Source: a virus. Taken from it: a stretch of 64,000 nt of DNA. The notes beneath the pieces were generated by a model that ran no database searches, had not been told where the DNA came from, and saw only the letters and a list, made by a program, of their open reading frames with translations. Position numbers and translations under genes: made by a program. Positions 3,840 through 32,700 of the stretch are shown here, piece after piece (position 1 is the first letter of the stretch; each line of letters opens with the position of its first letter). The stretch is taken from positions 62,001-126,000 of the IMG/VR virus record IMGVR_UViG_3300037258_001099, one strand, 5' to 3'.

Positions 3840-3866
3840 TTTGCTGCTGTAAAAAATTATATTTGC

Positions 3867-3895
3867 TTGCTTTATGATGTAATATATTTTATAAT
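3867..3895 (+). promoter_or_regulatory. Sigma70-type promoter for the HNH gene
   Basis: TTGCTT at 3867-3872 and TATAAT at 3890-3895 are separated by 17 bases. The leader that follows contains a small GCCCC/GGGGC hairpin. Confidence 0.6.
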
Positions 3896-3977
3896 GGTAG
3901 AGGTAACTAAATACTGTTGCCCCCGCGATGCTGATACATCCAGGGGCGTGAGTCAATTCTGTTTAGGAGAATTAACT

Positions 3978-6321: not shown

Positions 6322-7508
6322 GATACTTGTCCTACATTCTGATATTGCCCTAAGAGGGCTCTAGCATAGTAGGCTAACCCATCTGCTGTGTCAAACTCAG
6401 GGTGGCTAGAAACGGTGATTTTACGGGCAGGAATACGGGGACGGAAAGCATCTCTAAAGAAGTAGAACCCTCCTCCTACAAAGTAAACAGTTGATGCCTT
6501 TTCTGCAAGCATTCCATCTTTTCCTGCACCTAATCTGCTTGCAAGCTCTGCGGTGATTTGATATCCAACACTATTGCATCCATCCCTTACCCATCTTTCC
6601 ATATCTTCTAGGCTTACTGGTCCCCTATCGCTATTGGTTTCAATGATTGGATACGCAGGTATCTCTCGATGTTCTCTCCCTCTTCCCATTTCTGTAATAT
6701 CAAAGTCATCGTTCTCTTCTTGATATCTTCGTACAGCTATGTATGCACGGAGAATGTCCTCTGTTCTCGCTTGACTAATTTCAACCCCGTACTCATTCCT
6801 TGCTTCACTAATAATATGGTCAGCTATGTTCCTGACACCCTTGTTGATAGTTCCGCACTCAGCACCATCTTGTGCCTTCATTCCTCTTAGGGTGGCATAA
6901 TCGAATGTGTAATATCCACTATCAAAAACGATAGTGTATCGGTCATCCGCTGGAGCATTCCTAATAGCAGGCCCTATTCCCTCGGCGACAATTCTCCCTA
7001 CTTTAAGATCCTGGATGCGAATTTTTCTACCATTGTACTCAATATCGTGTGGGCCATTAAGGTTTCTCTTTACTTTTTCTTTTACTACTGGGTCCGATGC
7101 TAGTGTGAGAGGCAGGCACATGACACCAACAATATTGCACTGAACAATATCCTTGGGAAGTAGGGCTGCTATCCCAGTGAGCACATTCCTTCTGCACTCA
7201 AGAGATGAGTACCTACCTGGATCTGAATGACTCGTGGATGCATCTTTGGAGCGAAAAGCTCGGTCTCCAACAAACCATGATTGTTTGTTATATTTAAGCA
7301 CATGATCTGTCGGTTCAAGAGCATCGATGTCAGCAACAACAGAATTCCCTAGCAGGCTTCTTCGAGACGCAATATCTTCAATCCGCCCTAATTTACTTGC
7401 GCTTGGGAACGTTACCCTCTCGTATACTCCTTGTTCATTAATTCTCACTGCCGTAAAGTAGGAATTTCCATCATCAATTCCTATTGCAAAGGTTGGAACG
7501 TCGGTCAT
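6318..7508 (-). CDS. parM: ParM-like actin-fold ATPase for DNA segregation
   Basis: The 396-residue protein has the actin-superfamily nucleotide site. Phosphate-1 loop is G-I-D-D-G-N-S-Y-F at 10-18, phosphate-2 is F-D-S-G-Y-Y-T-F-D at 195-203, and the adenosine motif is V-Y-F-V-G-G-G-F-Y-F at 341-350. Length matches ParM/Alp proteins. It would polymerise with ATP and push plasmid copies apart after binding the RHH adaptor at the centromere. The CTAGTA repeat region directly upstream and the RHH genes downstream reproduce the parC-parM-parR order. It could also act as a phage cytoskeletal spindle protein (PhuZ is tubulin, so that is less likely). Confidence 0.85.
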   Translation of the reverse strand: MTDVPTFAIGIDDGNSYFTAVRINEQGVYERVTFPSASKLGRIEDIASRRSLLGNSVVADIDALEPTDHVLKYNKQSWFVGDRAFRSKDASTSHSDPGRYSSLECRRNVLTGIAALLPKDIVQCNIVGVMCLPLTLASDPVVKEKVKRNLNGPHDIEYNGRKIRIQDLKVGRIVAEGIGPAIRNAPADDRYTIVFDSGYYTFDYATLRGMKAQDGAECGTINKGVRNIADHIISEARNEYGVEISQARTEDILRAYIAVRRYQEENDDFDITEMGRGREHREIPAYPIIETNSDRGPVSLEDMERWVRDGCNSVGYQITAELASRLGAGKDGMLAEKASTVYFVGGGFYFFRDAFRPRIPARKITVSSHPEFDTADGLAYYARALLGQYQNVGQVS

Positions 7509-9803: not shown

Positions 9804-9822
9804 GCCTGCTTGCCTTGCAGGC
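9804..9822 (+). promoter_or_regulatory. Hairpin in the tail-tube leader
   Basis: GCCTGC (9804-9809) and GCAGGC (9817-9822) pair over a 7-base loop, 25 bases ahead of the tail-tube start. The T-tract after it is short (TTT), so it may be an mRNA-stabilising hairpin or a weak terminator. Confidence 0.4.
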
Positions 9823-9847
9823 TTTCCCTCTCGTGGAGAAAAGCTCT

Positions 9848-10885
9848 ATGTCACACACAGCACTCTCTGGAGCGATTGGCTTTGCTAAGCAATCAGCCAA
9901 AGACATCGCCAATACCTCCTACAATTACATGGCCTGCACATCCATTAGTATGGACCCCCAGCAAAATGCACAGGTACTTCCGCCTGAGATCGGGGGCGCG
10001 TACTTCCCGCGTGGGTCCTACAAAGCCTCGATCATGAGTAACGGCACGCTCGGCTTTTTGGTCCGTCCACATAGCATTGGGCATTTGCTCATGATGCTTT
10101 GCGGTGTAGATACCGTACTCACTGATACCCCAGTAGCAGGCGCAAACACCCATACCTTTACGCCGTTTCTGGTCGGCACTGGCAACGATTTGCCTTGGTA
10201 CACCACCGCTAAAGATGAGAGCCAGCTCTGGGCTGAGCAGCACTTAAACACCAGGCTTTCAAGTCTGCAACTCACCGTCCCCAAGTCAAGCATCATGACA
10301 GGGCAGGCAACGCTTGTTGCAACCACACCATCTGCTATCCTGTCATCCTCTCTTGGGGCCAAAACGTTCGACAACAATCCACCCTTCCAGGCGTGTCTGG
10401 CATCGATGAGTCTACAAGAAGAGGGTGGCTCTGGCAACATCTCGGCTAATTCTGTTCATGTGGAGCGCCTTGGCTTTACCTACAACAACAACCTCTCAAA
10501 CGATGAGTTTAGCGTTGGTAGCTTCAGTCTTGACGACATCACGCTGCAACAGAGGACGGTCACGGTTGACATGGATTTCGTGGTGAGAGATCCGGCCATC
10601 TATCAGGCGGTGTATTACAACGGTGGTGCAATCCCGCAGTCTTGGAGCCCCACAATTTATCGTGGGAATTTAAGCGTTGACGCCATTTCTACTGCCAATA
10701 TCGGCGCAACGACCACGCCGTTTTCTTGCCAGTTTAACTTCCCTGGATTGGATTTCTTGATGTTCCCAGCTCCCATGCAGGGTTCTGATGTTGTTCGCGC
10801 CACACTCTCAACACAAGTAACCCTTGGTCCGAGTGGGAGTGATCAGTTTAGCGTGGTGCTTATCAACGACGTAGCTTCGTACTAG
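9848..10885 (+). CDS. Major tail tube protein
   Basis: Start 9848 follows GTGGAGAAAAGC; a longer frame from 9815 has no ribosome site. The 345-residue product is rich in S, T, G, N and beta-strand pattern, with few charged residues, as expected for a tube subunit with an added immunoglobulin-like domain. The assignment rests mainly on position: it sits directly before a frameshifted chaperone and a tape-measure gene, which is the invariant siphovirus order. The C-terminal half (from about 215) contains paired strands (T-V-T-V-D-M-D-F-V-V) typical of tail tube folds. Confidence 0.78.
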   Translation: MSHTALSGAIGFAKQSAKDIANTSYNYMACTSISMDPQQNAQVLPPEIGGAYFPRGSYKASIMSNGTLGFLVRPHSIGHLLMMLCGVDTVLTDTPVAGANTHTFTPFLVGTGNDLPWYTTAKDESQLWAEQHLNTRLSSLQLTVPKSSIMTGQATLVATTPSAILSSSLGAKTFDNNPPFQACLASMSLQEEGGSGNISANSVHVERLGFTYNNNLSNDEFSVGSFSLDDITLQQRTVTVDMDFVVRDPAIYQAVYYNGGAIPQSWSPTIYRGNLSVDAISTANIGATTTPFSCQFNFPGLDFLMFPAPMQGSDVVRATLSTQVTLGPSGSDQFSVVLINDVASY

Positions 10886-11844: not shown

Positions 11845-11910
11845 TTCACGCACATTTTTGGAAAGGACAAGAGCAGTTCTTGTTCCCAGAAGAAAAGGAA
11901 CGTGAAACCG
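11841..11910 (+). promoter_or_regulatory. Nested hairpin closing on the tape-measure start codon
   Basis: CGGTTTCACG (11841-11850) pairs perfectly with CGTGAAACCG (11901-11910), whose last G is the first base of the GTG start. Inside, ACAAGA (11867-11872) pairs with TCTTGT (11878-11883), and the ribosome site AAAAGGA lies in the side loop. Confidence 0.55.
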
Positions 11911-14900
11911 TGTCAACATTCGATTACAGCGCCTGGTTTGGATTTCGTCCCAGGATTTCATCCACAGCGGAAGGGTTTGCACGCATGCCAGACTATGATC
12001 CCTCTCAGTTTGCTCCCCGTCCTGTGTGGAACCCTGCAACAGGTAAGTGGGAAGATCCAAACAAAGCAAATCGCACAATCAACCGCAGACCTACCATTGA
12101 GGCAGAGATTGCTGAGCGACAGCGCAGAGGATATTCTCTCTCTGATATTTCGCTTGCGCCACATGCTATCCCTCAAGGTGCCGCAGGTCCAGAGAAGTAT
12201 CAGTCACCAGAGGAATGGAAGAAAGCTCAGAGCACCTTCCAGTCTGTACAAGGCGCTCTTGGAGCCTCCACTGGTAAACAAGCTGCTACAGAAGCCCTAC
12301 GACGAAGTGATCTCAATAAGGCACTACGCCAGGGTCAGATAAGTACAGCAACTGCTGGCAAAGCTGCCATGATCACTGAGCGCATGAACCAAGAAGGGAA
12401 GCGTACACAGGCAGCGAACGAGGATCAGCTCAGAAATATGAGCACCCAGCCAGATGTAACGCCCTTCACCATCGTGCCACAAAAGAATCTTCCGTCACGA
12501 GCAAGCTTGCTCTCCCAGATGGAAGCTGCACAGCCCCAGGTAATAGCACTGCAACAGCAAACGCAGAAAAATGCCTCCGAGCTTATGGGCAAACAGGTAA
12601 AGATGCAGACGGTAAGTCAGTTCTTACCTGCCCTTTCACACGAGCAGCTTGGAGGGGTGCAGAGCAAGTCACAATATGTAGGGTTTCGTGGTGGTCCTGG
12701 TGGTGGCAAAAGTAAAGCGCTCATATCAGCCATCTTCAACAATCTGCTCAACCAAGGGCTCTCATCTGACGAGGCTGCTAGACTTGCCAAAAATACCATC
12801 TTTCTAAGCCAGACCAAATCAGCAGTCAGTCGCATGCGCACCAATATGGAAGGTGCAGAGCAAATGATCCCAGGCTGGGACGAGAAGGCTAGATCCGAGC
12901 AGATGATGACACTTGGCCGCTTTGCCATGAGTCTGCTTAATCGTAACCAGTCATCAGGCGGATCAATCTTACAGCAGATGGGGGCAGGTGACTACAAGCC
13001 GCTCTACCAGGGATCTGGCGAAAACATTGAAGAGGAGATGGCAAAGCGCGAGCATGAGCAGGTTTTGAAGCGCGTGCTCACCCAACATGGTTACAATACT
13101 CGGATCAATAATGTAGGCCAGCTTGCCCAAACGATCGCCGAGATCAAAGGCACAAGCAGAGAGACTTTTGAGGCAGCCTACAAACGAGGGAAGTCTCTGC
13201 AAGACCAAAATAGTCAACGGCAAGTCATCCCCTCTGAGCAGGCGCTCTACTTGTATCAGAACGAGCTGCATAGAACGAAGCAGTATGACATCAATGATGT
13301 GCCAGGAATGCTACTCAAAGCTTCGACGAAGAAGAATGTTCAGTTTCCGCGATTTGGCATGATTGCCAATGATGAGAGTCAGGACACGCCACCCATTTAT
13401 GGACAGCTCTTCCAGAAACTCCTTGGTCCATCTGGCCGACTCATTACGGCGGGCGACCCATCTCAGCAAGCGATCCGTCGCCCATGGGATATCGATCAGA
13501 CCATGAAGAGTGCTGGAGCCAAAATCCATGAGCTGAGCATCAATTTTCGTACTGGCCGCCACAATGTCTCCAGTCTCAATCCACTGCTCGCAACCCAGGC
13601 CATGGCTGATCAGCCAAAGAGCCCATTCCAGGCTGCATTCAAAGAGCATGATCAACCTATCAGAACGCATGTGGAGGAAAATTTCCCTGCCATGCACCGA
13701 GCCATGTTTGGCAACTGGATGAAAGACATGGGTCTGACTCCAGCCATGATTGCCAAAAACATGCAGTCAGGGGTCCATCCATTCTCAAGTCCAGATGCTG
13801 GGAGTCTGCTTCCAGGAGATGCACCGTTCATCTTCCAAAGAGATGAGGAAGGTCGTGGTGCATTCCTCAAAGAGATGCGGTCTACGCTGAGCAAGCACAT
13901 GGACGAGGCGATGCTTGATCGCTTCATGCAAGAGAACATCTCCAGCGAGCCACCTACCGCAAGCAATGTGATGTCTGCTCGTGCCTACACGGTTGGTCAA
14001 GCTAGGTCCCATGAGTTCCCTGAAATTCATGGCGACGTAACTCCGCAAGGTCTCTGGCCTCCAGAAGGTCATATAGGCCAGATCTATACGATGCAGTCAA
14101 GGGCTATTAATCAGCAGCATCTCTACTATTCTAAGAAGAATATGCCCAAGGGAACGCAGCATGATCTGGCTACCTCGTTCTTTGGAGGCCAAGAAGTGCC
14201 ACATGGTTGGGACCAACTTATGCAGGCAGGAACAGAAAATCTGGTAGATCAGCAAGGTATGGCTGTCGCAGATTTACCAGAGGCGATGCAGTATGCCTAT
14301 AACAGCCCACATGCCATGAACCTGGGGACTTCTCCAGAGCGGCCAACAGAAGACCCAGAGATGGTGAAGCAGTTTGTTGAGGAAACACTCTTTGCCAACA
14401 AGTTCTATAGTCCACCAGTTGACTCTGGATCTGGGCTGCTCCAGGGCAGCAAAGATGATCAATTTGCCGCTGACATGCGCACTTACGGTTTCAACGCCGA
14501 GATGCTCTCAGGGCAAACCAAGCGTTCTGTGATCTCACAGTCCAAGATGGAGATGGCAGCGCGTGCAGCCCAAGATATGATCATGAATGGCCCTGGTGTG
14601 GTCTCGCGGGGAGCAGCAACCTTCAACAGCGAAGGTGTCTGGCAAACCAAGCGTATGGGCAGGTCAGAGATCGAATCCGTTCCATCGCCCAAAGAGTTCA
14701 TGGATCGTATCCATCAGATGGCGGGACCTATTCCAGCACGTCTCATGAAGGACGATATCGAGCGAGAAGCTTCCTCAGAGTTTCCTGAGATCGATAATAT
14801 CCAGATGAAGCCATGGGCAGGAAAGGAGCAATCTCAAGAGGCTGGTGACACGACGCAGGTCCGTCAGTGGATGGGACACGCACTTGCTATTCCAGGGTTC

Positions 14901-17900
14901 CGCAATGTTCCAGAGATCATGGGCAGACTGAATGATCTACTCACTCATCCCAAGGTTCTCCAGTCGATCACGGGGCCACTTGGGAAGCTTGCTAAAAGTG
15001 ATCCAAAGCTTGCTCAACTTCAGAAGCGGATCAATCTTGGTCGGCTCGATGGTCACGAAGCTGAGAAGATCAAGAACAGGATTGCCAGACTTATAGGACT
15101 GGGTGCAAAAATCACACAGACTCAGCAAGTCCAGCTTTCTGCACTGCAATCGAAGATGAAGAAGGTTGGAGGAGAGCCTCTTCACCGGATCATCTCGCGG
15201 GTAGTGACACCAACACTCACAGGTACCAACAAACCTAATCCGCTCTATCATGCAGGGTTTGCAGATCTACTTCATGGGGCCGCAGCAAAACAGCTTCCCT
15301 GGCAGCATCTTGATCCAGACTTTGTGGGCTCGCTGGGAGGTAGGGCACGACAATTTGAAAGAGAGGGAGACACATCCAAGCGCCGTTTCTGGGGTGAGGC
15401 GGCAGGAAAATTTGAAGCATTTAGTTCCCAGGTGCATCCAGATGGATCGCCGCTCACAAAAGAGATGCTTGCCCACGCAGCTCCTCACGAGCGAGCACTT
15501 TTAGAGCGGATCTTCGAGAGCAAGCATGGTGGAGATATCCTGCCCTATAACCACCCAGATGTCGAGAGCCGCGTAAGCCAGTTTACCTATCAGCGAGGCC
15601 TCGTCAATCGTGGCATGGTCTCTCCCGAAAACATGGCAGCAATGAAGCTTTCTCGTGCTAACTCCAGGCGTGCTCCTGGTGAGACGGAGTTTGCCAACCT
15701 CTACATGGCGTTGCAAGGTGGTCTTTCGGAAGGAAGCGGCTCTGGTATCGAAGACCCAATGAACACACTTGCACGGGGAGGAGGCAGATTTGCAAGTCTT
15801 GGCGCTGGAACGCGACTTGACTCTATGATCCAGAGACTTACGGAACTCTCTGATCCTGCTGGTCGTGTGCTCACTTCAGCCGAACGTGCGGGGTTTGCTG
15901 AGCAACTTGGGCAGGCACAGTATGTGAAGTCTGAGCTCTCCAGTCCTACCAACTGGCGTGATTGGGCGCATACCCTGCGGGCGGCAAGCCTTGCCTCAAC
16001 TGGGAAAAACCTCCATGATCCAAAGCCCTTGGAGGAAGGAAAACCCAACGATCCAGTGAGAGAGCTTTTCCGCCACCGCGACCAACATGTTAAAAATGCT
16101 AGGTCTCTAGAAGGGCTGACAGGTCTCATCACTCCGCTCAAAGAGGCAACAGCACATTTACAAAAGACAGGATCACTGCGGCGGTCTCATGTGGACGAGA
16201 TCCTGAGAGCGTTTGGCTACGATCCGGCGGACAAGAATCTTACCGCGCTCCGAAAGCTAGAGGAGAAGAAAGGCTTTAGTAGCCGAGGCGGCCAAGATCC
16301 AGATCTACCAATGGCAAAATTGATCGGGCAGTTCCCAGACCAGATGAAAGATATGCGGGAGCAGCTTACCCGTGTGCCGATTATCCAGGGATCGCAGCAC
16401 TACACTTATATGGGAGGCGAGCCTGGATATGCCGATATCAAAAAAGCACAGCAGGGTATTCCCTCTGGGATCATGGGAACGCTGCATCCGCTTCCTAAAA
16501 CAGATGAGACTGGGCCTGAAGAAGAATTTGGTCTCTCCAAAAATGTCCAGTTCCACATGAGTCGGGACATGTTCTCCAAATCCGATCTGGGAGTATTCAA
16601 CCCAGAGAAGGCCAAGAGATTACCAGAGCATGTTGCAAATATGGATTATGCGCCACTCATGCAATTTGAAGGAATGCACCAGGGCAGCCACGTAAGCTTT
16701 CCAGTTCACCCAGAGCAACTTGCTCTTGCGGACACCAGTGGCCTCGAACAGGAAAAGGGTATCCAGGATCTCTTCAAACGTGCTAGGTGGACAGGTCTCA
16801 GATGGAAGGAGCAAGATCAAAATAAAAAGCAGATAGAGGTATTGCGTCGGTCAGCAGACGCTAAGCATAGAAAGGAGCATCCCCTCTTTACGCCAAGGCA
16901 GCTTGCAAACCCTCGGGGATATGCTAGTTCCTTTGGAGTTGATCCACGGACACTCCCGCCAGCGTACAGATCACACATAGGAGGGCAAATTAACTCTCCA
17001 AGCAAGGTCCTGGCGGCAGCGCAGGTAGCCCAGCACAGCCAGGGTCAGATGGCACGAGGGCTGGTGGGAATGCAGCAGCCAGTGCCAGAGCCCATGCCGT
17101 CTTATCGTGGATACCAGCTTGGTGGAGATTTAAACGAAGCGGCCATTGACTCGATCATTCGCAGCCAGCAGAAGAAGGAGCTAGAGGCAAATACGGCAGA
17201 GACACCTGAGTTTGGGCCAGTTGATCCAAATTTGCAGCCGATGCTTCCTGGCTTTGGTGGAGGCGGGGGAAATCTTCCCCCAAGGCCACCATCGGTTCCT
17301 ACACCAGAACCAGAAAACGATCCCAGTAGAATGTTCTCGGCTTTGTCTTCTCCAGAATTGGAGAGGGCACAGCCTTTTCTTGCGCATCCCAGATTCAACC
17401 AGCTCTACAAAACTTTCGAGACAGGACGGCTCTTTGGAAGACAAGTAACGTGGCAAGGGCATCTTGAAGATGAGCACGCCTTTAATCTGCGTCATCCAGA
17501 GCTCCATAAGAGTGATCTTGAGCTAACGAGCGGCCTCTTGGGGAAATCAGTTCCTCCGCCTCCACCTGATGCATCTACCATGGCTCCACGGCAAAGACAA
17601 GAATCATCCGGCTTGCGCCAAAGAATGATGGTTCAACATGCATCTGGTCTGGCACAGGCAAGAGATAGGAAAAACGATCCGCTGCTCGCAACGATTGGGC
17701 AGCATATTCCTGCCCAGGTGCCACTAGCACCAAGCCAAGGGGGAATTCCACCCCACGACATGGCTCAACTTCTTACACATCTACGCAGCGGGAAACAGTC
17801 CTCTGATATCGCCCTGGCAAAGCAATACGGCAAAGCGCCGATGCAATACCTAGGTAGTATTTCCGGTAATCAGAAACCATTACCGGAAATTGCAGCAGTA

Positions 17901-20900
17901 GCTCCTGGCGCGAGAGGGTCCTGGGATGAAGATTCGTATGGCTTCCCAGCAGAAGCTCCTCCTGATGACCTTTCTATGGGTGACGAGGAAATGTTTGAGT
18001 TTCACCAAGCTCTGGGTCAGATGGATGCGTTCGAGTCACCTGCAAAAAAAGCTACTCCAGCCCCTGTAAGTCCAACGCCTATTCCTGCTCCTGCCTCAGC
18101 GGGGCCAGCGTACCAACTCTCTCACTTGCCAAAGCTGATGCGATCACAAAGGCGCACCCTTATTAGAGGAGGCCAGATTCACCCCTTTGAGGAAGGAAAG
18201 CCTGGCATTGGTGTTGGAGGAACCAATCCTGAGCAACGTGATGTGTTAAATGCTCCTGATCGCCGCATGATTGTGCAAGGTGGGCCTGGCACGGGCAAAA
18301 CTGAGACCATGATCATGAAGATCGCGGACCTGATTGCTAAAGGCCATGTCGACCCAAGCCGTATCATGGCTTTCTCTGGTATGCACTCAGGTGTCTCTGA
18401 GCTCAACACCAGGATGAGCAAATTCTTGCAGCCATTACTTCCCCATGGAGAAGAGCACAAGCTTCCTGCGGCTCGTACACTGCACTCTCTAGCCCATCAG
18501 GTCCTCTTCCAAAGAGGCAAGCCAAGTCCAGCACTGGGTGGCATTGGACTTGGTTGGATTAAGGGGGTCATGGGTAACCCAAGCGAGGAAGAGCTCGCAA
18601 GGCAAACTCCAGAGACCCAGGAAAAGCTCCGCGACCAGCAACGTCAATTCTTGCACGGGGCTATTAAGCAAAACTTCCCGAAAGCCAAATGGCTTCCAAG
18701 CACACCAGACGAGCTTGATCGTGTCATGGGGGATATCAAGAAATACAAGTCTAGTCGCACTGGAGAGGACCCACTTTACGATAAGATGATAAAAAAAGGC
18801 CTTGGGGATATTTCTCATGGCAAAAAGTTCACCCATGCCGGAGCCCTTGCTGTCTATGAGCAATCTGTGGCGCAGACAGGCAACATTGATTTTGAGGATC
18901 TGATCACCTACGGCAGTTCTGCTCTTGGCCGTCTCGGAAGCGAAGCTATCCCGCAAGGTGTTGAGGGAACGCAGCTCCTCGCCTATGACGAGGCGCAAGA
19001 CGCCAACCGAGAGAACCTGGGATTTGTCTCCAATCTCGTGAGTGCTCTTGGACCAGAAACACATGCAGTTGTCGGTCTTGATCCACTCCAGTCGCTTTTT
19101 CAGGGAGCTGGAAGCCTGCCTGGAGAGCATATTGTGCCAGCCATTCAGCAGATGCTGGGTGGAGCAGGACACATTCAGCTTCGCGGAAACTATCGCAGCT
19201 CCATGAAGGATGTGGCGCTCTCCAATTCGATCTTACAAATGCATGCCATGAGCGGAAAGAAAGGACTTTCCCCACTTCAGGTCCCCTATTCACAGAAGCT
19301 TGGATCAGAGCCAAGCTTCATGCTTAGAAAATCCCAGCCTGAGCTCTATAAGAAGATGTTTTCCTCTATGCTTGCCCATGCTGGTGTCTCTCCAAAAACC
19401 ATGCGAGAAAATATTTTGGCTGGAGAGCATCCCTTTAAAGGAGTGGACTGGAACCAGCCAGACAAGATTCGGCCAGGGGAAATGCCTGCACTTTTTATGA
19501 TGAAGGCGCAGCGCTCACTCTTTGAGCATATTGCCCCATCAATCATTCAGGGGCTTGATCCAGCGGGCAAGATTGATCCTGAGATGGCAAAGAAAGCCTT
19601 TGGGCAGATGTATCGGCCAGGTCTGCCTGGCAAAGCCGCAAGCGATGAAGAACAGACTATATTTGCCAATAAGCTCGCATTCCGAGGACTCACCGTGGGC
19701 CAGAGTAGAGGACTCTCCTTTGAGAACCCACATATGGATGCCTCCCCCGTAGGGGAATGGCGGCGTCCTGGGGAGAAGGCTGAGGAGTCGTACTTGCACA
19801 ATCTGGGAGTCATGGTTTCTCGCACAAAAGAGGGTGGACGCAGCTTTATTGGGGCGGCAAGCACCCCGTTTTCTGGCGATCAGATGAAGGATTTTGTCCA
19901 GACACAAGGAAAGCACTACCGCGAGACCTCTCCAGAGTCACATAATCGTGGATCGGTATGGTATGGGGAACCTGGCTCTGATCCGCTATCTGTCCATCCC
20001 CGCAATGAGTTCGATACCCACGAAGGTCAACCAGTAGCACACTACTTTGGCGAGATTATGGGACTCCAGAAGAAGCAGGTAGATGACTGGAAAGCGATGA
20101 AGAATTCCCCTGCCCAAGCGGCTGTTCCAGCACAACTTGTCTCGCAAGAAGCAGTTGCCGCATCACCCCCTAGAAAGCAAGATCTTGCCAAGACAGCTCT
20201 GTCTGACCTTCAATCACGTGCGCCATCTGGCAGGAGTGCTCAAATAGAGTCGCTGCTAGCAAAGACGGTTGCATCGCCCCACGCGTCAGATCCTAGCCAG
20301 CACGCAATGGTCGGTCAACTCCACACAGAGTTTGCCAAACTTGGTGGCTCAGCTTCCTGGTCAGATTTCATGAAAGCAAAAGCACCAGAGATTGAGAATC
20401 TAGCAGGACCACAAAGCCCTGTGACCAAGCTTGCTCAAACAATGGCCGCATCCCCTGATAAATATGCGCCTGGATCTACGGCGATATCAGCCAAAGATGT
20501 CACCGTCAATGCTGCCGCCAATTCCAAAATCACCGTTGCAGGGGGCGCACAGGTTGATGTGATCCGAGCAAGCACGCCTCCTCTCGCCTCTATGGCAGCA
20601 GTAGGTAAAGGCGCATCGCCCGTGAGCTCCACCATTGCCAAAAATACACCAATAGAGGACTTACCTCTCTCGGGAGCAACTCCTGTCACGCGTATTAGCC
20701 GCAATCCTTTTGCAAGCACTGGAGGCATTCCGTCTACGTCAACAACGACAGTGGCTCAGGTCACAGGTGGTGCTCCTTCTGGGACAAGTGTTGGCGCAAG
20801 CACAGTAGGTGGGCCATCATCTAAAGGTGGCATTGGCTCGTTGGTTATCCACCCAGGAGCATCTGTTGGCGCTATCAACGTCTACGGAGGTGGACCAACT

Positions 20901-23900
20901 ACGGGCGGAGGCGGAGATGGTGGGGACAAAGAGCCGCCAAAGACCACGCTTGCGAAGTTCTCCGACGGGCTCACGAATACTGGTCGTACCTTCGCTCGTA
21001 TTGGGCAGGAGATGCAGTACTTCGGGCAGCTCTTCAATGATGTTACGCAGAAGGCACTTGAGCAAGGATCAGACTATAGACTTGCCTCTGGGACATTTAA
21101 AGCATCTGGCGCAACCGCTGACAGGGGCTTCTACGACTTTGCCAATCCTGCGAGCGGCATCTCTCAGATGCAGACGAATAGCCTGCCGATGTTCTCCAAG
21201 ACCGATATTGCACAAAATCTCCAAAATGTAGCAGGCATGGTAGGAGGCCAGCTTCCACCTTCTGGGACGTCAACGAGTATCATGCAGCTTGCAGCACTAA
21301 CTGGGGCAGATCCGACACAGCTTACCTCTCAGATAGGCTACATCAGTGGCTCGATGGGACAAGGGATGACCGCTACACCTGCAATCGAAGGATACACGGG
21401 GAGCCTCTATCACGGCCAGGTAAACGCAACCAACCTTGCTCCAACGCTCCAAGCGGTCTCCTCGGCGCTTCCCAGCATGCAAGGGCTCACATTTGGACAA
21501 GGCAACAATCTAGGAGCCTTCTACGGCCTCATGAATGCGGCTCAAGGCGGAGGCATGACAGCGGCCAATATGCCCGATGTCTCTGACCTTACGAATTCTC
21601 TGGCTCAAGTAGGCACTGCGCCTAATCTCAATCAGCAGGCAGCACTCAATCAGCTTTTCCCAGGACAGCTCACAGGCGGTGCCCAGCTTGCCCAGTTCCA
21701 ACAGCAACAAGTGGGAATGAGTGAGCAGGCAGGAGAGCTTGGTCTTCAGCAGCAGTTCAATGTGCCAGGCCTTCAGATGCAGATTGGCAATGCCAACGTC
21801 GCGATGCAGCAGGCTAATGTTGATCTCGGGCAGATCCAACAACAGCAAGGCTATGCCCAACTTGGCCTCTCTCAGCAAGAGCTTGGATCAAGCCAGGCGA
21901 ACCTTGATTACCAGAGAGACCAGCATGACTATCAGCAAGCCAGCCTGAACTATCAGAAGCAGCAGCTTAATTATAGTGAGGCACAGCTTGGCTATTCCCA
22001 GCAGCAATTTCAATATAGCCAGGCTCAGTACAGCCAAGCGCAACTCCAGCAGCAATATGCGCAAGCGAGCTTTACCCAGCAGCAATATGTCCAGACACAG
22101 GAGTATGGCCCCATTGGTGCCGACACTGGACGGCAGAGCTACTTCGATTTCATGCGTAATCAGCAAGCGGCAGGATACAACCCGCTCTCCGCTGAAACTG
22201 GGACCCAGTTCAAGCCGTCAGCGCCTCAAGGTATCCAGAACATGCAGTTCTACGCAGGGATTGAGAACCAGCGTCAGATGAGCATCCTCTCGCGGTCACC
22301 GCTGCTCTCAGATGCTGCATTTCAGCAACAGCAAAAATACTTAAACGAGCAAGAGGCCTTCTATAAGGAGCAGCTAGACTTAACAAACGAGCAGCGTACC
22401 TTTGACGTGACCTGGGGACAGAAGATGCTCGACTCCCAGCAGAAACTCCTCGACCTACAAGGGCCACTGCTCACTACACAGAAGAAGCTCCTGGATATGC
22501 AGCAGCCAATGCTCGATACCCAAAAGAGCCTGCTGAACCAACAGCAAGGGCTTCTCAACACTGAGGGGCATCTCCTCGATCTCCAACAAGGCATTCTGGA
22601 TACCCAAAAAGGCATGCTTGTCTATACCCAGGAAGCCCTTGATCAGCAGGGCAAAATCCTGGGTATCCAGCAGACCCAGGTGGGCCTTACAGCGCAGATG
22701 AATGATTACCAAAATGCTCAGCTCAAGCTTCAACAAGCGTATCTGCCAGCCCAGCTTGGGGCTCTTCTCGCAGTCCAGACAGCCATGGAGCAGCAAATTA
22801 ATGGACAAGGCCCTGTCAATGGCACAAATCCCACGCCACAGCAGATCATTAAGCAGCTCTCTCTTATCCAGAATCCAACCCAGCAACAGGATATTATGCG
22901 CAACCTGGGACTGCCTCCCAATCAGGTAAATACCCTGCAAACTATCCTCAATGGTATGAAGAAGGCTGGCGGCTATGATGCAGCCATGAGTGGGGTTTCC
23001 CCTGCCGACAAAAGCATCCAGGCGCAGGTGAACAACCTCATCAAGTCAGGAGCCTTTGCTGGACAAACAAATCAAGCTGCACAGTCTGACACCTCGCTCC
23101 TGCTTGGTGGCACAGCAGCGCAGTGGACAAAGTTCACGCAGGCTTTTGATACGGCCAACAAATATGCAGAGCAAACAGCAAACGCTGCATCCTCCATCAA
23201 CGACTATATCAAGGGCTGGGGAACCTTCTTTTCTATGGCTGGTCCTGCCATTGTTGGCATCGGCATGCTGCTCCAGGGTCTTGGGCTTGGCGGACAGGCA
23301 CTGAACTTCTTTACATCAGGAGGTGCCTCTGCTGCTGCTGGCGGGGCTGCAAGCTGGGTAACACAAACAGCAGCTCCAGCAGTCGCCTCGGCGGCATCAA
23401 CAACGGCAAGCGCAATCTCGTTAGCCCTTACCACTGCTGCCCCTATCATCATTCCTCTGGTTATTGCTGCTGCCGGAACGGCAATTATAACATTCGCATT
23501 AAAGTGGCTTGGGGATCAGGCATCAAATATTAATCAGCAGAACTTTAACAACCCAAAGAATGCAACCTCAAATCTTCCGTCGTGGCTTCAGTGGCTTCCT
23601 GGCAAAACAGCTTCTCCACAAGTTGTTGCTTCTGCGCAATCGAAGCAAGATGCGTACCGAGCCTCTCACGGCGGAAAAGACATGCCGATGCCTGATGAGA
23701 GTCCGCTCGCCAAGGGAACGCTTCTTGGGGATGCCTGGAGCGGTATTAAGACAGGCGTAGGCAACGCCTGGAATTGGCTGACAGGTGGAAACAACAAAGC
23801 TGAAGCATCTCCCGCTCCAGCAAATCCCAAAGGACATGACTTTGGGGCACAACCAAATGCACCAGTGATACCCACGCCACCATCGGTATCACCATGGAGT

Positions 23901-25646
23901 ACGGCATACAAAGCTATTGTGGGGGTATTTGCGCCGCTAGGCAAAACTTTCCAGGGCTATTGGAACGCTGTAGCTAGCGGATCTGACTGGTTAAGAACAT
24001 ATATCAAAGGTAAAATAAGCGATTCATGGAATGCTATCGTCACTAAGTTCTCTCCTCTAGGTAAGTTTTTTAGCAATCTTTGGGTTGATGTACAAAATGT
24101 ATGGAAATCAGCTCCTGGATGGCTACACGATAGATTTCAAGATGCATGGAACAGGGTAACAGGGGTATGGTCCCCTCTCGGTAAGATTTTCCAGGGCTTT
24201 TGGAAAGACGTACAGAATGTATTTGTAGGAGCACCCAAGTGGTTCCAAGGTGAATGGCAAATTGCGTGGAATAATGTAACAAATATATGGTCTCCAATCG
24301 GTAAAACATTCCAGGGATACTGGAATGATATCATGGGAGGAGTTAATTGGCTCAGAACGAATATATCTAATACATGGAATAGTATAAAGGTAGATACTGA
24401 AAATATATTTCACAATATGATAAACGGGATTATCGATCATTTAAATGATGGAATATCGGGCGTAGAGGGATTTATTAACTTTTTTGGGCAAGGACTCGAT
24501 AAAATTGCTGGGGCCTTCCATGTCAGTGATCCTATCCCACAGAATAATCACCTCGGTCGCATTCCCCACTATGCTCTTGGTACCGACTCCCATCCTGGCG
24601 GCCCTATGGTTGTAGGTGAAAAAGGTCCCGAACTGCTTTTTGCTCCAAAGGGCTCTACAGTTGTTCCGGCTGATCTGACCGAAGCGCTGCTCTCAATGTT
24701 TAAAGGCAAGGTTCCAGGCTATGCTGGCGGCGTTGGTGATATCACAGCGTCTATCATCGATTGGGTAACAGGTGGCGCTAAATCGTTATTGGACAACGTT
24801 GTGAGCACTCTGCATATCACGGCTCCAAATCTCGGACCAATGAAGGACATTTCATCTGGTGTCTTCAACTCATTGGAGAAGTGGGCGCTAAGTTGGATCA
24901 GTTCGATTTTGCCATCTTTCGGTGGCAGTGGCAGCCAAGGGAGCCCAGGAACACTGACAGGTGTTCCTGGCAATGTTGCTTCATGGATACAATCCGCTAT
25001 GGCGCTCACGCACGTGCCTGCAAGCTGGCTAGCAGACCTAGAAATTATCGCTATGCACGAATCGGGCGGCAATCCGAATTCTATTAACCTTTGGGACAGC
25101 AATGCCCTAGCTGGTCATCCTTCACAAGGCCTGTTTCAGACGATACCTGGCACTTTCGCCGCCCATGCTCTTCCAGGTCACGGAAATATATTAAACCCGA
25201 TAGACAATGCTGCTTCAGCTATTGGGTACATAGAGGGTAGATATGGCGATGTGTTCCATGTGCCTGGAATAGTCTCAATGAGTCATGGTGGCCCTTATGT
25301 CGGGTATTCTGGAGGCGGCATACTCTCTGAACCTGTTGTTGGCACGGGACTGAGTACTGGGACACGATATAGCTTTGCAGAGGCTGCGCCAGAGGCAATT
25401 GTGCCACTCTCAAAGCTTTCCATTGCGCTCAAGTCTCTTCCCAAGAGCGGGAGTAGTGCCGTCTCTACCCAGCCAACAACAATATCTTCAAATTCTGGAC
25501 AAAGCATTCAAATAAAGAGCCTGATTGGGACCGCAACCATTAACATAAACACCAATGGAACAAAAATTGCTGACACCGAGAAAGATGAGCTGATGAGTCA
25601 GATCATGGATCTCTTTAGTGATGCGCTCAAGCAGTTGAACACCTAA
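11910..25646 (+). CDS. Giant tape-measure protein with two UvrD-like helicase cores and lytic transglycosylase
   Basis: GTG at 11910 (10 bases after AAAAGGA) is preferred to an upstream TTG, giving 4,578 residues. It sets tail length and is injected ahead of the DNA. Domains in order: SF1 helicase core 1 (about 250-745); a long Q/P/G-rich unknown region; SF1 helicase core 2 (about 2105-2660); G/S/T-rich linker (to about 3000); Q-rich coiled-coil repeats (about 3260-3630); hydrophobic segments (about 3773-3868); four W-S-P-L-G-K-x-F-Q-G-x-W repeats (about 4000-4165); tape-measure hallmark G-G-P-M-V-V-G-E-K-G-P-E-L-L-F (about 4230); transglycosylase domain (about 4350-4470). The C-terminus repeats a G-G-G-I-L-S-E-P-V-V-G motif typical of tape measures. 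Among known phages only tape measures near 5,000 residues are as long. Confidence 0.93.
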   Translation: MSTFDYSAWFGFRPRISSTAEGFARMPDYDPSQFAPRPVWNPATGKWEDPNKANRTINRRPTIEAEIAERQRRGYSLSDISLAPHAIPQGAAGPEKYQSPEEWKKAQSTFQSVQGALGASTGKQAATEALRRSDLNKALRQGQISTATAGKAAMITERMNQEGKRTQAANEDQLRNMSTQPDVTPFTIVPQKNLPSRASLLSQMEAAQPQVIALQQQTQKNASELMGKQVKMQTVSQFLPALSHEQLGGVQSKSQYVGFRGGPGGGKSKALISAIFNNLLNQGLSSDEAARLAKNTIFLSQTKSAVSRMRTNMEGAEQMIPGWDEKARSEQMMTLGRFAMSLLNRNQSSGGSILQQMGAGDYKPLYQGSGENIEEEMAKREHEQVLKRVLTQHGYNTRINNVGQLAQTIAEIKGTSRETFEAAYKRGKSLQDQNSQRQVIPSEQALYLYQNELHRTKQYDINDVPGMLLKASTKKNVQFPRFGMIANDESQDTPPIYGQLFQKLLGPSGRLITAGDPSQQAIRRPWDIDQTMKSAGAKIHELSINFRTGRHNVSSLNPLLATQAMADQPKSPFQAAFKEHDQPIRTHVEENFPAMHRAMFGNWMKDMGLTPAMIAKNMQSGVHPFSSPDAGSLLPGDAPFIFQRDEEGRGAFLKEMRSTLSKHMDEAMLDRFMQENISSEPPTASNVMSARAYTVGQARSHEFPEIHGDVTPQGLWPPEGHIGQIYTMQSRAINQQHLYYSKKNMPKGTQHDLATSFFGGQEVPHGWDQLMQAGTENLVDQQGMAVADLPEAMQYAYNSPHAMNLGTSPERPTEDPEMVKQFVEETLFANKFYSPPVDSGSGLLQGSKDDQFAADMRTYGFNAEMLSGQTKRSVISQSKMEMAARAAQDMIMNGPGVVSRGAATFNSEGVWQTKRMGRSEIESVPSPKEFMDRIHQMAGPIPARLMKDDIEREASSEFPEIDNIQMKPWAGKEQSQEAGDTTQVRQWMGHALAIPGFRNVPEIMGRLNDLLTHPKVLQSITGPLGKLAKSDPKLAQLQKRINLGRLDGHEAEKIKNRIARLIGLGAKITQTQQVQLSALQSKMKKVGGEPLHRIISRVVTPTLTGTNKPNPLYHAGFADLLHGAAAKQLPWQHLDPDFVGSLGGRARQFEREGDTSKRRFWGEAAGKFEAFSSQVHPDGSPLTKEMLAHAAPHERALLERIFESKHGGDILPYNHPDVESRVSQFTYQRGLVNRGMVSPENMAAMKLSRANSRRAPGETEFANLYMALQGGLSEGSGSGIEDPMNTLARGGGRFASLGAGTRLDSMIQRLTELSDPAGRVLTSAERAGFAEQLGQAQYVKSELSSPTNWRDWAHTLRAASLASTGKNLHDPKPLEEGKPNDPVRELFRHRDQHVKNARSLEGLTGLITPLKEATAHLQKTGSLRRSHVDEILRAFGYDPADKNLTALRKLEEKKGFSSRGGQDPDLPMAKLIGQFPDQMKDMREQLTRVPIIQGSQHYTYMGGEPGYADIKKAQQGIPSGIMGTLHPLPKTDETGPEEEFGLSKNVQFHMSRDMFSKSDLGVFNPEKAKRLPEHVANMDYAPLMQFEGMHQGSHVSFPVHPEQLALADTSGLEQEKGIQDLFKRARWTGLRWKEQDQNKKQIEVLRRSADAKHRKEHPLFTPRQLANPRGYASSFGVDPRTLPPAYRSHIGGQINSPSKVLAAAQVAQHSQGQMARGLVGMQQPVPEPMPSYRGYQLGGDLNEAAIDSIIRSQQKKELEANTAETPEFGPVDPNLQPMLPGFGGGGGNLPPRPPSVPTPEPENDPSRMFSALSSPELERAQPFLAHPRFNQLYKTFETGRLFGRQVTWQGHLEDEHAFNLRHPELHKSDLELTSGLLGKSVPPPPPDASTMAPRQRQESSGLRQRMMVQHASGLAQARDRKNDPLLATIGQHIPAQVPLAPSQGGIPPHDMAQLLTHLRSGKQSSDIALAKQYGKAPMQYLGSISGNQKPLPEIAAVAPGARGSWDEDSYGFPAEAPPDDLSMGDEEMFEFHQALGQMDAFESPAKKATPAPVSPTPIPAPASAGPAYQLSHLPKLMRSQRRTLIRGGQIHPFEEGKPGIGVGGTNPEQRDVLNAPDRRMIVQGGPGTGKTETMIMKIADLIAKGHVDPSRIMAFSGMHSGVSELNTRMSKFLQPLLPHGEEHKLPAARTLHSLAHQVLFQRGKPSPALGGIGLGWIKGVMGNPSEEELARQTPETQEKLRDQQRQFLHGAIKQNFPKAKWLPSTPDELDRVMGDIKKYKSSRTGEDPLYDKMIKKGLGDISHGKKFTHAGALAVYEQSVAQTGNIDFEDLITYGSSALGRLGSEAIPQGVEGTQLLAYDEAQDANRENLGFVSNLVSALGPETHAVVGLDPLQSLFQGAGSLPGEHIVPAIQQMLGGAGHIQLRGNYRSSMKDVALSNSILQMHAMSGKKGLSPLQVPYSQKLGSEPSFMLRKSQPELYKKMFSSMLAHAGVSPKTMRENILAGEHPFKGVDWNQPDKIRPGEMPALFMMKAQRSLFEHIAPSIIQGLDPAGKIDPEMAKKAFGQMYRPGLPGKAASDEEQTIFANKLAFRGLTVGQSRGLSFENPHMDASPVGEWRRPGEKAEESYLHNLGVMVSRTKEGGRSFIGAASTPFSGDQMKDFVQTQGKHYRETSPESHNRGSVWYGEPGSDPLSVHPRNEFDTHEGQPVAHYFGEIMGLQKKQVDDWKAMKNSPAQAAVPAQLVSQEAVAASPPRKQDLAKTALSDLQSRAPSGRSAQIESLLAKTVASPHASDPSQHAMVGQLHTEFAKLGGSASWSDFMKAKAPEIENLAGPQSPVTKLAQTMAASPDKYAPGSTAISAKDVTVNAAANSKITVAGGAQVDVIRASTPPLASMAAVGKGASPVSSTIAKNTPIEDLPLSGATPVTRISRNPFASTGGIPSTSTTTVAQVTGGAPSGTSVGASTVGGPSSKGGIGSLVIHPGASVGAINVYGGGPTTGGGGDGGDKEPPKTTLAKFSDGLTNTGRTFARIGQEMQYFGQLFNDVTQKALEQGSDYRLASGTFKASGATADRGFYDFANPASGISQMQTNSLPMFSKTDIAQNLQNVAGMVGGQLPPSGTSTSIMQLAALTGADPTQLTSQIGYISGSMGQGMTATPAIEGYTGSLYHGQVNATNLAPTLQAVSSALPSMQGLTFGQGNNLGAFYGLMNAAQGGGMTAANMPDVSDLTNSLAQVGTAPNLNQQAALNQLFPGQLTGGAQLAQFQQQQVGMSEQAGELGLQQQFNVPGLQMQIGNANVAMQQANVDLGQIQQQQGYAQLGLSQQELGSSQANLDYQRDQHDYQQASLNYQKQQLNYSEAQLGYSQQQFQYSQAQYSQAQLQQQYAQASFTQQQYVQTQEYGPIGADTGRQSYFDFMRNQQAAGYNPLSAETGTQFKPSAPQGIQNMQFYAGIENQRQMSILSRSPLLSDAAFQQQQKYLNEQEAFYKEQLDLTNEQRTFDVTWGQKMLDSQQKLLDLQGPLLTTQKKLLDMQQPMLDTQKSLLNQQQGLLNTEGHLLDLQQGILDTQKGMLVYTQEALDQQGKILGIQQTQVGLTAQMNDYQNAQLKLQQAYLPAQLGALLAVQTAMEQQINGQGPVNGTNPTPQQIIKQLSLIQNPTQQQDIMRNLGLPPNQVNTLQTILNGMKKAGGYDAAMSGVSPADKSIQAQVNNLIKSGAFAGQTNQAAQSDTSLLLGGTAAQWTKFTQAFDTANKYAEQTANAASSINDYIKGWGTFFSMAGPAIVGIGMLLQGLGLGGQALNFFTSGGASAAAGGAASWVTQTAAPAVASAASTTASAISLALTTAAPIIIPLVIAAAGTAIITFALKWLGDQASNINQQNFNNPKNATSNLPSWLQWLPGKTASPQVVASAQSKQDAYRASHGGKDMPMPDESPLAKGTLLGDAWSGIKTGVGNAWNWLTGGNNKAEASPAPANPKGHDFGAQPNAPVIPTPPSVSPWSTAYKAIVGVFAPLGKTFQGYWNAVASGSDWLRTYIKGKISDSWNAIVTKFSPLGKFFSNLWVDVQNVWKSAPGWLHDRFQDAWNRVTGVWSPLGKIFQGFWKDVQNVFVGAPKWFQGEWQIAWNNVTNIWSPIGKTFQGYWNDIMGGVNWLRTNISNTWNSIKVDTENIFHNMINGIIDHLNDGISGVEGFINFFGQGLDKIAGAFHVSDPIPQNNHLGRIPHYALGTDSHPGGPMVVGEKGPELLFAPKGSTVVPADLTEALLSMFKGKVPGYAGGVGDITASIIDWVTGGAKSLLDNVVSTLHITAPNLGPMKDISSGVFNSLEKWALSWISSILPSFGGSGSQGSPGTLTGVPGNVASWIQSAMALTHVPASWLADLEIIAMHESGGNPNSINLWDSNALAGHPSQGLFQTIPGTFAAHALPGHGNILNPIDNAASAIGYIEGRYGDVFHVPGIVSMSHGGPYVGYSGGGILSEPVVGTGLSTGTRYSFAEAAPEAIVPLSKLSIALKSLPKSGSSAVSTQPTTISSNSGQSIQIKSLIGTATININTNGTKIADTEKDELMSQIMDLFSDALKQLNT
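12660..14145 (+). other. Helicase core 1 inside the tape-measure gene
   Basis: UvrD/Rep-like SF1 motifs are present in order. I: G-G-P-G-G-G-K-S at residues 261-268. Ia-like: F-L-S-Q-T-K-S-A-V-S-R-M. II: D-E-S-Q-D at 488-492. III: G-D-P-S-Q-Q at 515-520. IV: L-S-I-N-F-R at about 544. V: T-V-G-Q-A-R-S-H-E-F-P at about 693. VI: Y-T-M-Q-S-R-A-I-N near 725. The catalytic lysine, D-E pair and arginines of IV and VI are kept; motif V is divergent. Confidence 0.82.
17859..17890. repeat. Palindromic element ATTTCCGGTAAT inside the tape-measure gene
   Basis: ATTTCCGGTAAT (17859-17870) and ATTACCGGAAAT (17879-17890) are perfect 12-bp inverted arms with an 8-base spacer. The same element recurs at 58831-58870 and as a half site at 62915. 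Confidence 0.75.
18222..19890 (+). other. Helicase core 2 inside the tape-measure gene
   Basis: A second UvrD-like set. Q motif: N-P-E-Q-R-D-V-L. I: G-G-P-G-T-G-K-T at 2124-2131. Ib-like: A-R-T-L-H-S-L-A-H. II: D-E-A-Q-D at 2360-2364. III: G-L-D-P-L-Q-S-L-F near 2390. IV: L-R-G-N-Y-R-S-S near 2427. V: L-T-V-G-Q-S-R-G-L-S-F near 2594. VI: V-M-V-S-R-T-K-E near 2634. It is closer to canonical UvrD than core 1. Confidence 0.88.
21690..22800 (+). repeat. Glutamine-rich coiled-coil repeats of the tape measure
   Basis: Two arrays: Y-S-Q-A-Q/Y-Q-K-Q-Q type heptad-like repeats (to about 22100), then repeats of the form L-L-D-x-Q-[QK]-x-[LM]-L-x-x-Q (about 22420-22690). They are typical of the extended rod of tape-measure proteins. 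Confidence 0.8.
23905..24400 (+). repeat. Four tryptophan-rich repeats of the tape measure, AT-richer segment
   Basis: Four units share [FW]-[SA]-P-[LI]-G-K-x-F-x-x-x-W followed by A-W-N-x-[IV]. Units 2-4 and the following 100 bases are visibly more AT-rich than the rest of the gene. Confidence 0.75.
24960..25320 (+). other. Lytic transglycosylase domain of the tape measure
   Basis: The SLT-like signature M-H-E-S-G-G-N-P contains the catalytic glutamate at residue 4384, followed by S-Q-G-L-F-Q-T-I-P-G-T-F and a downstream A-A-S-A-I-G-Y-I motif. It would open peptidoglycan during injection. Confidence 0.88.
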
Positions 25647-29786: not shown

Positions 29787-32700
29787 ATGGTCACTGAGAA
29801 AAGAACAATTCTAGACGGTATTCGCCAAAAGGTCTTTCTGGATCGCTACGCACTCAAAGATGCAGGGGGAAACCCCATCGAGGAGTATCCAGAAGAAATG
29901 TGGAGACGAGTTGCCTTCGCCATCGCATCCGTTGAGAAGACAAAGCCAGATCAAGACCTCTGGGAAAAGCGCTTCTACCATGCCATGGCTGATTTCAAAT
30001 TTGTCCCTGGTGGCCGTATTCTCTCTGGTGCAGGAACTGGGTTTGATGTAACATGCTATAACTGCTATGTGATCGAAAGTCCTCATGACAGTCGTGAAGG
30101 TATTATCGATAATCTGAAGATCATGACCGAGATCATGGCACGTGGTGGTGGTGTTGGTATTAATCTCTCTACGCTGCGTCCACGCGGAAGTTATATCAAG
30201 ACGGTCAATGGGACAGCATCGGGACCTTGCTCGTGGGCACAATTGTACTCGGTTGCCACAGGTGATGTGATCCAGCAAGGTGGCTGCTTTGGGCCGCATG
30301 TAGAAATTGAGACAGACCGTGGAGTGATCGCAGCAAGTGATCTTGCTGACCTGCTCGATAGTGGCGAGGATGTACAAGCACTTACCCATAAAGGATATCA
30401 CCCCATTACGGCGGTTTTTCGCAATGGGAAAAAGAAACTCTTCCAGGTAAAAACCTATTCTGGCTTTGAAATTGAAGTCACAAAAGACCATAAGATGGGC
30501 GTCCTTCGTGACGATACCATAACGACCGTTCCCCTTGAACATCTGCGCATCGGTAGCTCTATTCTTCGTTTCCGCAAAGAGTCGAGTACCTGCCACCCGA
30601 CAAGCATCTCCTCTATCACGCCTATTGGCGAGCACGAGACCTTTGATTTTGAAGTTGCAGATGTGCATCTGCTTGTTGCTAACGGCCTCTATACCTCAAA
30701 CTCCAGGCGCGGCGCACTTATGCTGATGCTCAATGATAATCATCCTGATATTGAAGAGTTCATCACGGTCAAAAAGCAGAAGGGCATGATTGAGCATGCG
30801 AACCTTTCTATCTGTGTCTCAGATTCGTTCATGAAGGCAGTTGAGCATGATGCTGACTGGAACCTCATCTGGGACGACAAAGTACAAAAGACAGTGAAGG
30901 CTCGCTCACTCTGGGATCTCATCTGCACCTCGGCCTGGGAGTCAGCCGAACCAGGACTGGTATTTATGGAGCGGTGTAACGAGCAAAGCAATACATGGTA
31001 CTATGAAAAGATTAATTGTGTCAATCCATGTGTGGCTGGAGACACCCTTGTCTCTTGCTTCTACTCGATAGAGCCCATTCCTATCAAAGAGCTCGCAGAG
31101 AGAGGAAAAGATGTTCGGGTAGAGTGCTTTGACAAAGAGCGCGGTACGAGAGAAATACGCCTTGGGAGATCTCCACGTCTTACCCGCAAAGATGCGGAAG
31201 TCTGGAAGCTTACGCTTGATGATGGATCAGTCTTTCGAGCAACCCCTGACCATAAAATGCTGCTTGCAAACGGAGAAGAGCGCCAGCTTCAAGATCTTCA
31301 GGTAGATGATTACCTTGCTTCTTACGTTCGCAAAGAGGGAGTGTCGCCAACAACTAGGCAAGTTGCGGGCATTGTTCCTTATGGCAGAGAAGATGTCTAC
31401 AACATTACTGTGGATGACTATCATACCGTTGCCTATATAACAAATGCAGAAAAGTATTCTGGCATCTTTGCCATGAATTGCGGCGAGCAGCCGTTAGGGG
31501 ATTGGGGTGTATGTAATCTGGGAGCGATTAACTTAGCAGCTTTTGTAGAAGATGAGACCTTTGACTACACAGAGCTCAGATTAGTCACAAGAGAAGCAAT
31601 GCGCTTCTTGGACAACGTGATTGACGCAACCACCTATTTTATTCCTGAGAACAAAGAAGCCCAGCTTGGTACCCGCCGTACGGGTCTTGGAACCATGGGT
31701 TTGGCCGACGCGCTGATTAAAATGCGTATCTCGTATGGGAGTCTAGAATCGCTCACTCTTATTGAATCTATCTATACCAACATTCGTAACGTTGCCTATG
31801 AAACATCTGCGCACCTGGCAGGTGAAAAGGGAGCGTTTCCAAAGTATAGCTGGGGTGAGTATAAGCAAGGCTACTTTATTGAGCGGCTTCCTTCCCACAT
31901 CCGAAGTGAGATCGCGGCAAACGGGATACGTAATGCAGTCCTGTTGACTCAGGCCCCTACAGGCACCACAAGTCTATTTGCGGGTGTCAGTTCTGGCATC
32001 GAACCTGTCTACGACTTTGCGATGATCCGGCGCGATCGTACAGGTGAGCATGTGATGTATCATCCACTGATGCAGAAGTGGCTTGACACCTGCTCTGAGA
32101 AAACACATGGATCACTTCCAAGCTACTTTGTCTCCTCAAAAGATCTCACCCCAGAACAACATGTGGCCGTACAAGCCAGGATACAGAAGTTTACCGACGC
32201 TTCCATTTCCAAAACTGTAAATGCTCCCAGTAATCATACTGTTGAACAAGTAAAAAAGCTTTATCAGCTTGCCTACAATGAGGGTTGTAAAGGTATTACT
32301 TACTACCGTGACGGCTCACGTGACGCGGTACTCACCCGTATTGCTGACGAGAAGATACTAGAAACGCCCCAGGTCGCGGAAATCTTTCAGAGAGATCGTC
32401 CAGAGATCGTCTATGGCTACACCAGGCAAATCCAGGCTCCTGAAGGCAAAGCTAATGTAACGATCAATAGTGATGAGGCAGGGCTTTTTGAGGTCTTCAT
32501 AAATGTAGGGAAAGCAGGCTCGGATATCGCGGCACTATCGGAAGCACTAGGGCGGCTGATTTCCCTCAATCTTCAAATACCAAGCCTACTCTCCCCAGAG
32601 ATGAAGACGATGGAGATCATCAAACAGTTACGTGGCATTGGTGGAAGCCGTACTGTTGGCTTTGGAACGCGCCAGGTGCGTTCCCTTCCTGATGCAGTAG

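Follow-up and report, generated by a model that had tools for sequence, protein, structure and literature searches.

Two UvrD-like helicase modules predicted in one reading frame with a tape-measure protein in a phage known from environmental DNA

The window is a stretch of 64,000 nucleotides (bases 62001-126000) of a 136,990-bp IMG/VR virus record; the phage is known only from environmental DNA. Features of the locus are given in Table 1. The giant frame starts at a GTG, ends at a stop at 25646 and has an alternative in-frame start, TTG 11880. The genes for terminase, portal and major head proteins are on the same strand, further upstream.

Other genes of the record are as follows. A thymidylate kinase gene and an endonuclease VII/HNH gene (window 2178-2813 and 3867-4901, + strand) interrupt the structural genes. 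A ParM/actin-like partition protein (window 6318-7508, - strand; PHROG 691 and Pfam ALP_N) is encoded on the opposite strand, inside the structural gene block; such a gene might fit what a phage-plasmid would carry. The large subunit of ribonucleotide reductase (window 29787-32897, + strand; 1,036 aa) has an intein-splicing match (PF14890, E 3e-12) inside its barrel domain. An IS605 OrfB/TnpB-type protein with a Cas12f-like TNB domain is found at window 39330-40556 (- strand), and a second lookalike of this type, similar by eye, at genome 39890-41215. A putative endonuclease of the Uma2 family is encoded at window 51233-51817 (+ strand; Pfam E 1e-29). This family is common in Cyanobacteria and Chloroflexota, and the gene is a weak hint of the host.

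Table 1. Features of the giant frame and of one upstream tail gene. Coordinates are those of the window. Features are sorted by position.
Feature	Coordinates	Strand	Residues	Evidence or remark
Minor tail protein	9815..10885	+		PHROG 290, E 4.6e-20; two genes upstream of the giant frame
Giant frame	11910..25646	+		Uninterrupted; 4,578 aa from GTG 11910; paired UvrD-like modules N-terminal, then tape-measure protein
N-terminal part	11910..12584	+	1-225	Without recognised domain (Pfam)
Core 1, UvrD/SF1A-like module	12627..14189	+	~240-760	PF00580 E 6e-17; hhalign 98.0%, E 1.5e-13 (RecA1 half)
Core 1 motif I / Walker A, GGPGGGKS	12690..12713	+	261-268	
Core 1 motif II, DESQD	13371..13385	+	488-492	
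Core 1 motif IV, NFRTG	13542..13556	+	545-549	Motif scan and hhalign
Core 1 putative motif V, TVGQAR	13989..14006	+	694-699	Common to core 2; position only
Core 1 putative motif VI, QSRA	14094..14105	+	729-732	Position only
Spacer between cores	14307..18164	+	800-2085	Proline-rich near its end
Core 2, UvrD/SF1A-like module	18177..20009	+	~2090-2700	PF00580 E 3e-25; hhalign 99.5%, E 4e-22 (RecA1 half)
Core 2 motif I / Walker A, GGPGTGKT	18279..18302	+	2124-2131	
Core 2 motif II, DEAQD	18987..19001	+	2360-2364	
Core 2 motif IV, NYRSS	19188..19202	+	2427-2431	Motif scan and hhalign
Core 2 putative motif V, TVGQSR	19692..19709	+	2595-2600	Common to core 1; spacing
Core 2 putative motif VI, VSRTKE	19815..19832	+	2636-2641	Spacing
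Ala/Ser/Pro/Thr/Gly-rich linker	20067..20999	+	~2720-3030	Composition
Gln-rich repetitive rod	20997..23279	+	~3030-3790	
Hydrophobic membrane-spanning-type segment	23403..23513	+	3832-3868	Kyte-Doolittle peak 2.48; single strong segment
Conserved tape-measure C-terminal region	23895..25470	+	~3996-4520	PLGK-x-F repeats at 4009-4138
SLT lytic transglycosylase	25038..25250	+	4377-4447	Pfam PF01464, E 2.2e-7

The original prediction, made from the letters of the DNA, was of one continuous frame of 4,578 codons holding two UvrD-like helicase cores followed by a tape measure. The frame is uninterrupted as predicted. Codon usage differs by 0.018-0.041 bits among the cores, spacer, linker, rod and C-terminus, and by 0.024-0.077 bits between neighbouring phage genes. 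At the joint of helicase part and rod, GC by codon position shows no step, and the stretch from core 2 motif VI to the rod has no in-frame start preceded by a convincing ribosome-binding site. The uniform codon usage and the lack of a good internal start before the tape measure make an artefact unlikely; a genuine single polypeptide, with two UvrD-like modules fused to a tape measure, is supported by these sequence features.

The C-terminal part has the marks of a tape measure: a profile match, a rod, a hydrophobic segment, a cell-wall hydrolase and a place among tail genes. The profile match is to PHROG 167 (tape measure; residues 3558-4557, E 2.3e-73), with a further match to PHROG 4070 (E 4.7e-34). 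Residues 3207-3664, within the rod, are repetitive and contain 21-25% glutamine. The predicted rod, hydrophobic part and transglycosylase are thus all borne out, the hydrophobic part as one strong segment, and UvrD, PHROG 167 and SLT matches fall in one frame, as a fusion of a helicase pair to a tape measure would have it. The ordinary tape measure is about residues 3030-4578 (~1,550 aa), and the N-terminal extension is 3,000 residues long. The stretch between the cores (residues 800-2085; 1,285 residues) had no match in phages, Pfam or PADLOC.

The profile search that had been proposed gave two matches to Pfam UvrD-helicase (PF00580) over the curated cut-off in the giant frame (whole protein, E 1.8e-38); no other UvrD match was found by Pfam in the 137-kb record. 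In hhalign, the reference was a profile of 29 UvrD-family proteins. The match of both cores extends from the Q motif to motif IV and ends there; the spacer regions of the giant protein, used as control, gave no match (scores of at most 18.8). Both RecA1 halves carry the set of SF1A motifs (Q motif, Walker A, DExQD, motif III and motif IV). The spacing of motifs II and IV is 57 residues in core 1 and 67 in core 2, against a median of 62, and the best PDB sequence matches of core 2 are PcrA and UvrD. Motifs I-IV of both cores are statistically secure by these profile comparisons, including the motif IV arginines, and the residues predicted for both Walker A and both DExQD motifs are exact. Identity of the cores with Gabija GajB was considered and rejected: the PADLOC similarity is no more than that of any UvrD.

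Two complete sets of motifs I-VI had been predicted; motifs V and VI are less firmly placed than I-IV. No Pfam match to UvrD_C was found in either core, whereas standalone plasmid UvrDs do match it (E 1e-38 or better). The second-best hhalign matches (E 0.2-0.7) align TVGQAR of core 1 with motif V and QSRA with motif VI, and the matching stretch of core 2 falls on nearly the same profile columns. The spacings IV-V and V-VI are 149 and 35 residues in core 1 and 168 and 41 in core 2. They are 165 and 43 in the compact standalone UvrD of Sphingomonas phage MMDA13, and the medians of 16 UvrD-family proteins are 273 and 46. Motif V reads TVGQ[AS]R in both cores, unlike the usual T-x-H-x-x-K-G-L-E. 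From spacing and resemblance, motifs V and VI are probably present in both cores. A first MAFFT alignment left core 1 without the motif VI arginine; this reading was dropped, since QSRA (729) takes that place in the second-best hhalign match, at a spacing that resembles that of other helicases. The IV-V distance, far shorter than the median, is too short for the 2B regulatory domain of UvrD/PcrA/Rep, and both cores therefore appear to be without it. AlphaFold models of both cores, from a two-row alignment (only two alignable sequences), had a pLDDT of 32 and 34 and were uninformative. By their RecA1 halves the cores fall in the UvrD superfamily; assignment to the family proper, UvrD/PcrA/Rep, fails on 2B.

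The two cores match each other in BLASTP over 515 residues (E 7e-13, 23% identity; ~23-25% across comparisons). A match is likewise seen between the halves that follow motif IV (43.5 bits; none of 500 shuffles above 27.7). On these matches, core 1 and core 2 are paralogues, homologous past motif IV too. The low identity implies an old duplication. The catalytic residues of motifs I-IV are retained in both copies despite this divergence, which suggests selection for ATP use.

Relatives were searched with both parts of the protein. With the tape-measure C-terminus as query, IMG/VR gave 416 related stretches, of which the best 80 were kept. The closest among the matches listed, contigs L003-L016, have 42-54% identity over about 380-580 aa. 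The tape-measure frames of records L003-L018 are about 1,100-1,900 aa long where the contig end does not cut them, and no UvrD match was found anywhere in these 16 records, several of which are fragments. Among the best 80 of the 416 loci, a profile search detected neither a helicase nor a frame longer than 2,000 aa. In the genome collection, the C-terminus matched mostly Bacillus and actinobacterial prophages, in which the helicase is absent. Queries of IMG/VR with core 1, core 2, core alignments and DExQD and TVGQ patterns found no relatives, and the core profile found no helicases in the other viral and genomic loci fetched. Both cores were compared by tblastn with 50,697 phage records and with plasmids, and helicases were found at 19-39% identity: the five matches from unannotated phage records that were inspected are all standalone UvrD ORFs (617-755 aa), none fused, and the plasmids gave ordinary helicases only. 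In 399, 397 and 297 genomes (the second and third draws overlap), the core alignment turned up ordinary UvrD frames only (690-1,070 aa), an empty answer that proves little. The portal and capsid have distant relatives only, and a terminase query in IMG/VR found none. By these searches the fusion is a singleton so far. The statement of the original prediction that no helicase pair is known in a tail ruler agrees with the literature searches, which gave no earlier report of a helicase there.

The preferred reading is held tentatively, at somewhat under an even chance: a tape measure with paired compact SF1A motors that would be delivered and would act on the entering genome. Tape measures are believed to be injected, forming a channel (PMC10770324). 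In phage 80-alpha, the C-termini of the tape measure lie at the tip, and its N-termini lie at the neck, where they touch the tail-completion protein next to the DNA (PMC11661146). By analogy, the motors would sit head-proximally, close to the end of the genome. During infection the tape measure would exit first, and its hydrophobic and SLT parts would open the envelope. The N-terminal motors would arrive last, together with the leading DNA end, on the cytoplasmic side at the inner mouth of the channel. There, using host ATP, they could attach to the incoming DNA, translocate along it, clear bound proteins and help with pulling in or guarding the end of the genome. UvrD-family enzymes translocate as monomers and unwind as dimers, and deletion of 2B activates the monomer (PMC13238157). 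With two cores that lack 2B on a single chain, the pair would be built in, and the missing inhibitory domain would fit an unregulated motor. That the tail ruler is a motorised uptake device, with paired SF1 motors at the inner channel mouth that grip the genome end once the tape measure has made the envelope channel, and that spend host ATP on pulling the DNA inside or clearing the way for it, is unlikely.

A folded helicase core is wider than about 45 Å. The tail lumen is ~45 Å (PMC10034513), so the motors would need to be kept unfolded, placed outside the lumen or cleaved off. This is the main physical objection to delivered motors; it applies equally to the enzyme-bearing tape measure of Thermus phage P23-45. 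The need of UvrD-type motors for single-stranded DNA, which the incoming duplex has only at its end, also counts against the preferred reading, as do the failure to find a fused relative in the searches above and the missing UvrD_C match.

Action on the entering genome (pulling, clearing or guarding) would be the economical role, and injected counter-defence its main rival. In the latter, the motors would act against host nucleases, restriction enzymes or recombination proteins at the entering ends, displacing or blocking them as has been proposed for polyvalent proteins and the P1 DarB type, and would not pull DNA. Large helicase-bearing antirestriction proteins that are injected do exist: P1 DarB combines a methylase and an SF2 helicase, and a UvrD-like domain is found in giant conjugative polyvalent proteins (PMC5512222). 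Translocation by UvrD, moreover, strips RecA filaments (PMC13238157). Against this, none of the partner domains of polyvalent proteins (methylase, SWI2/SNF2, Ard, LPD, ParB-like and others) was found in the extension by Pfam, PHROGs, PADLOC or NCBIfam. Delivery and substrate are the same as in the preferred reading, so sequence cannot separate the two; counter-defence as the main function is not likely.

Quite improbable is a polyprotein whose helicase part would be cut off in the infected cell for replication, repair or recombination, leaving the C-terminal part as the tape measure. The long Ala/Ser/Pro/Thr linker that joins core 2 to the rod would suit it, as would the length of the tape-measure part alone, which fits the usual range of its relatives. 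Neither a cleavage site nor a partner protease was identified, however; gp96 of P23-45 is full-size in virions, and for replication the phage of this record encodes a primase and an SF2-type helicase separately. More doubtful still is a structural or degenerate use, in which the modules would neither hydrolyse ATP nor move, and would serve in DNA-end binding or neck assembly. The unusual motif V and a RecA2 half that profiles do not recognise are consistent with it; the catalytic residues of motifs I-IV and the arginine at the motif VI position, kept in both copies at ~23% identity, suggest selection for an ATPase and argue against it. An assembly or annotation artefact joining unrelated genes is very improbable: the record is single and no second example was found, but the frame is continuous over 13.7 kb, the codon usage of the helicase part is as near that of the rod as adjacent genes are to one another, composition is constant across their joint, and the cores are too divergent for a duplicated assembly error.

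P23-45 already showed that tape measures can carry an enzyme; a helicase would be a second, unrelated class of enzyme in that position. If the preferred reading is true, use of the tape measure as an arm that delivers a nucleic-acid machine would be a general principle, with a motor placed where DNA enters. This would bear on how the final stretch of a phage genome is taken up against the pressure of the cytoplasm and on how genome ends are guarded on entry. Such a protein would make these questions directly testable, through point mutations of the two Walker A lysines.

Among known systems, UvrD, PcrA and Rep share with the cores the RecA1 half with motifs I-IV and the Pfam UvrD-helicase match over the cut-off. 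They differ in that the cores have neither a UvrD_C match nor room for 2B, have TVGQ[AS]R as motif V, and are present as two copies within a tail protein. Polyvalent proteins and P1 DarB are also very large, multidomain and helicase-bearing, and are delivered with invading DNA (PMC5512222). They carry methylases, SF2 helicases and accessory domains, whereas none of these is recognised here and the carrier is a tape measure; the parallel is looser than that with P23-45. The tape measures of L003-L018 and PHROG 167 share the C-terminal region (up to ~580 aa in L003-L016) and the SLT domain; those of L003-L018 are of ordinary length, with no helicase in the tape measure or the record. The N4 virion RNA polymerase, given as a parallel in the original prediction, is carried in the virion and injected; unlike the giant protein, it is neither a tape measure nor a helicase.

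A closer precedent than N4 is P23-45 gp96, a tape measure of 5,002 residues with an N-terminal virion RNA polymerase, found full-size in virions (PMC10770324); N4-related fusions are mentioned in the same paper. Both proteins are giant tape measures with an N-terminal nucleic-acid enzyme and with hydrophobic and hydrolase parts. P23-45 gp96 is proposed to act on DNA passing the pore, and the same is proposed for the helicase fusion. The enzyme of gp96 is a single two-barrel RNA polymerase with DxDxD, unlike the paired helicases, and gp96 has a metallopeptidase where the giant protein has SLT. A hidden RNA polymerase in the giant protein was considered and rejected: D-x-D-x-D is found nowhere in it. 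The presence of gp96 in virions has been shown, whereas the giant protein is known from sequence alone. By analogy, the fusion would resemble the P23-45 kind, with a different enzyme.
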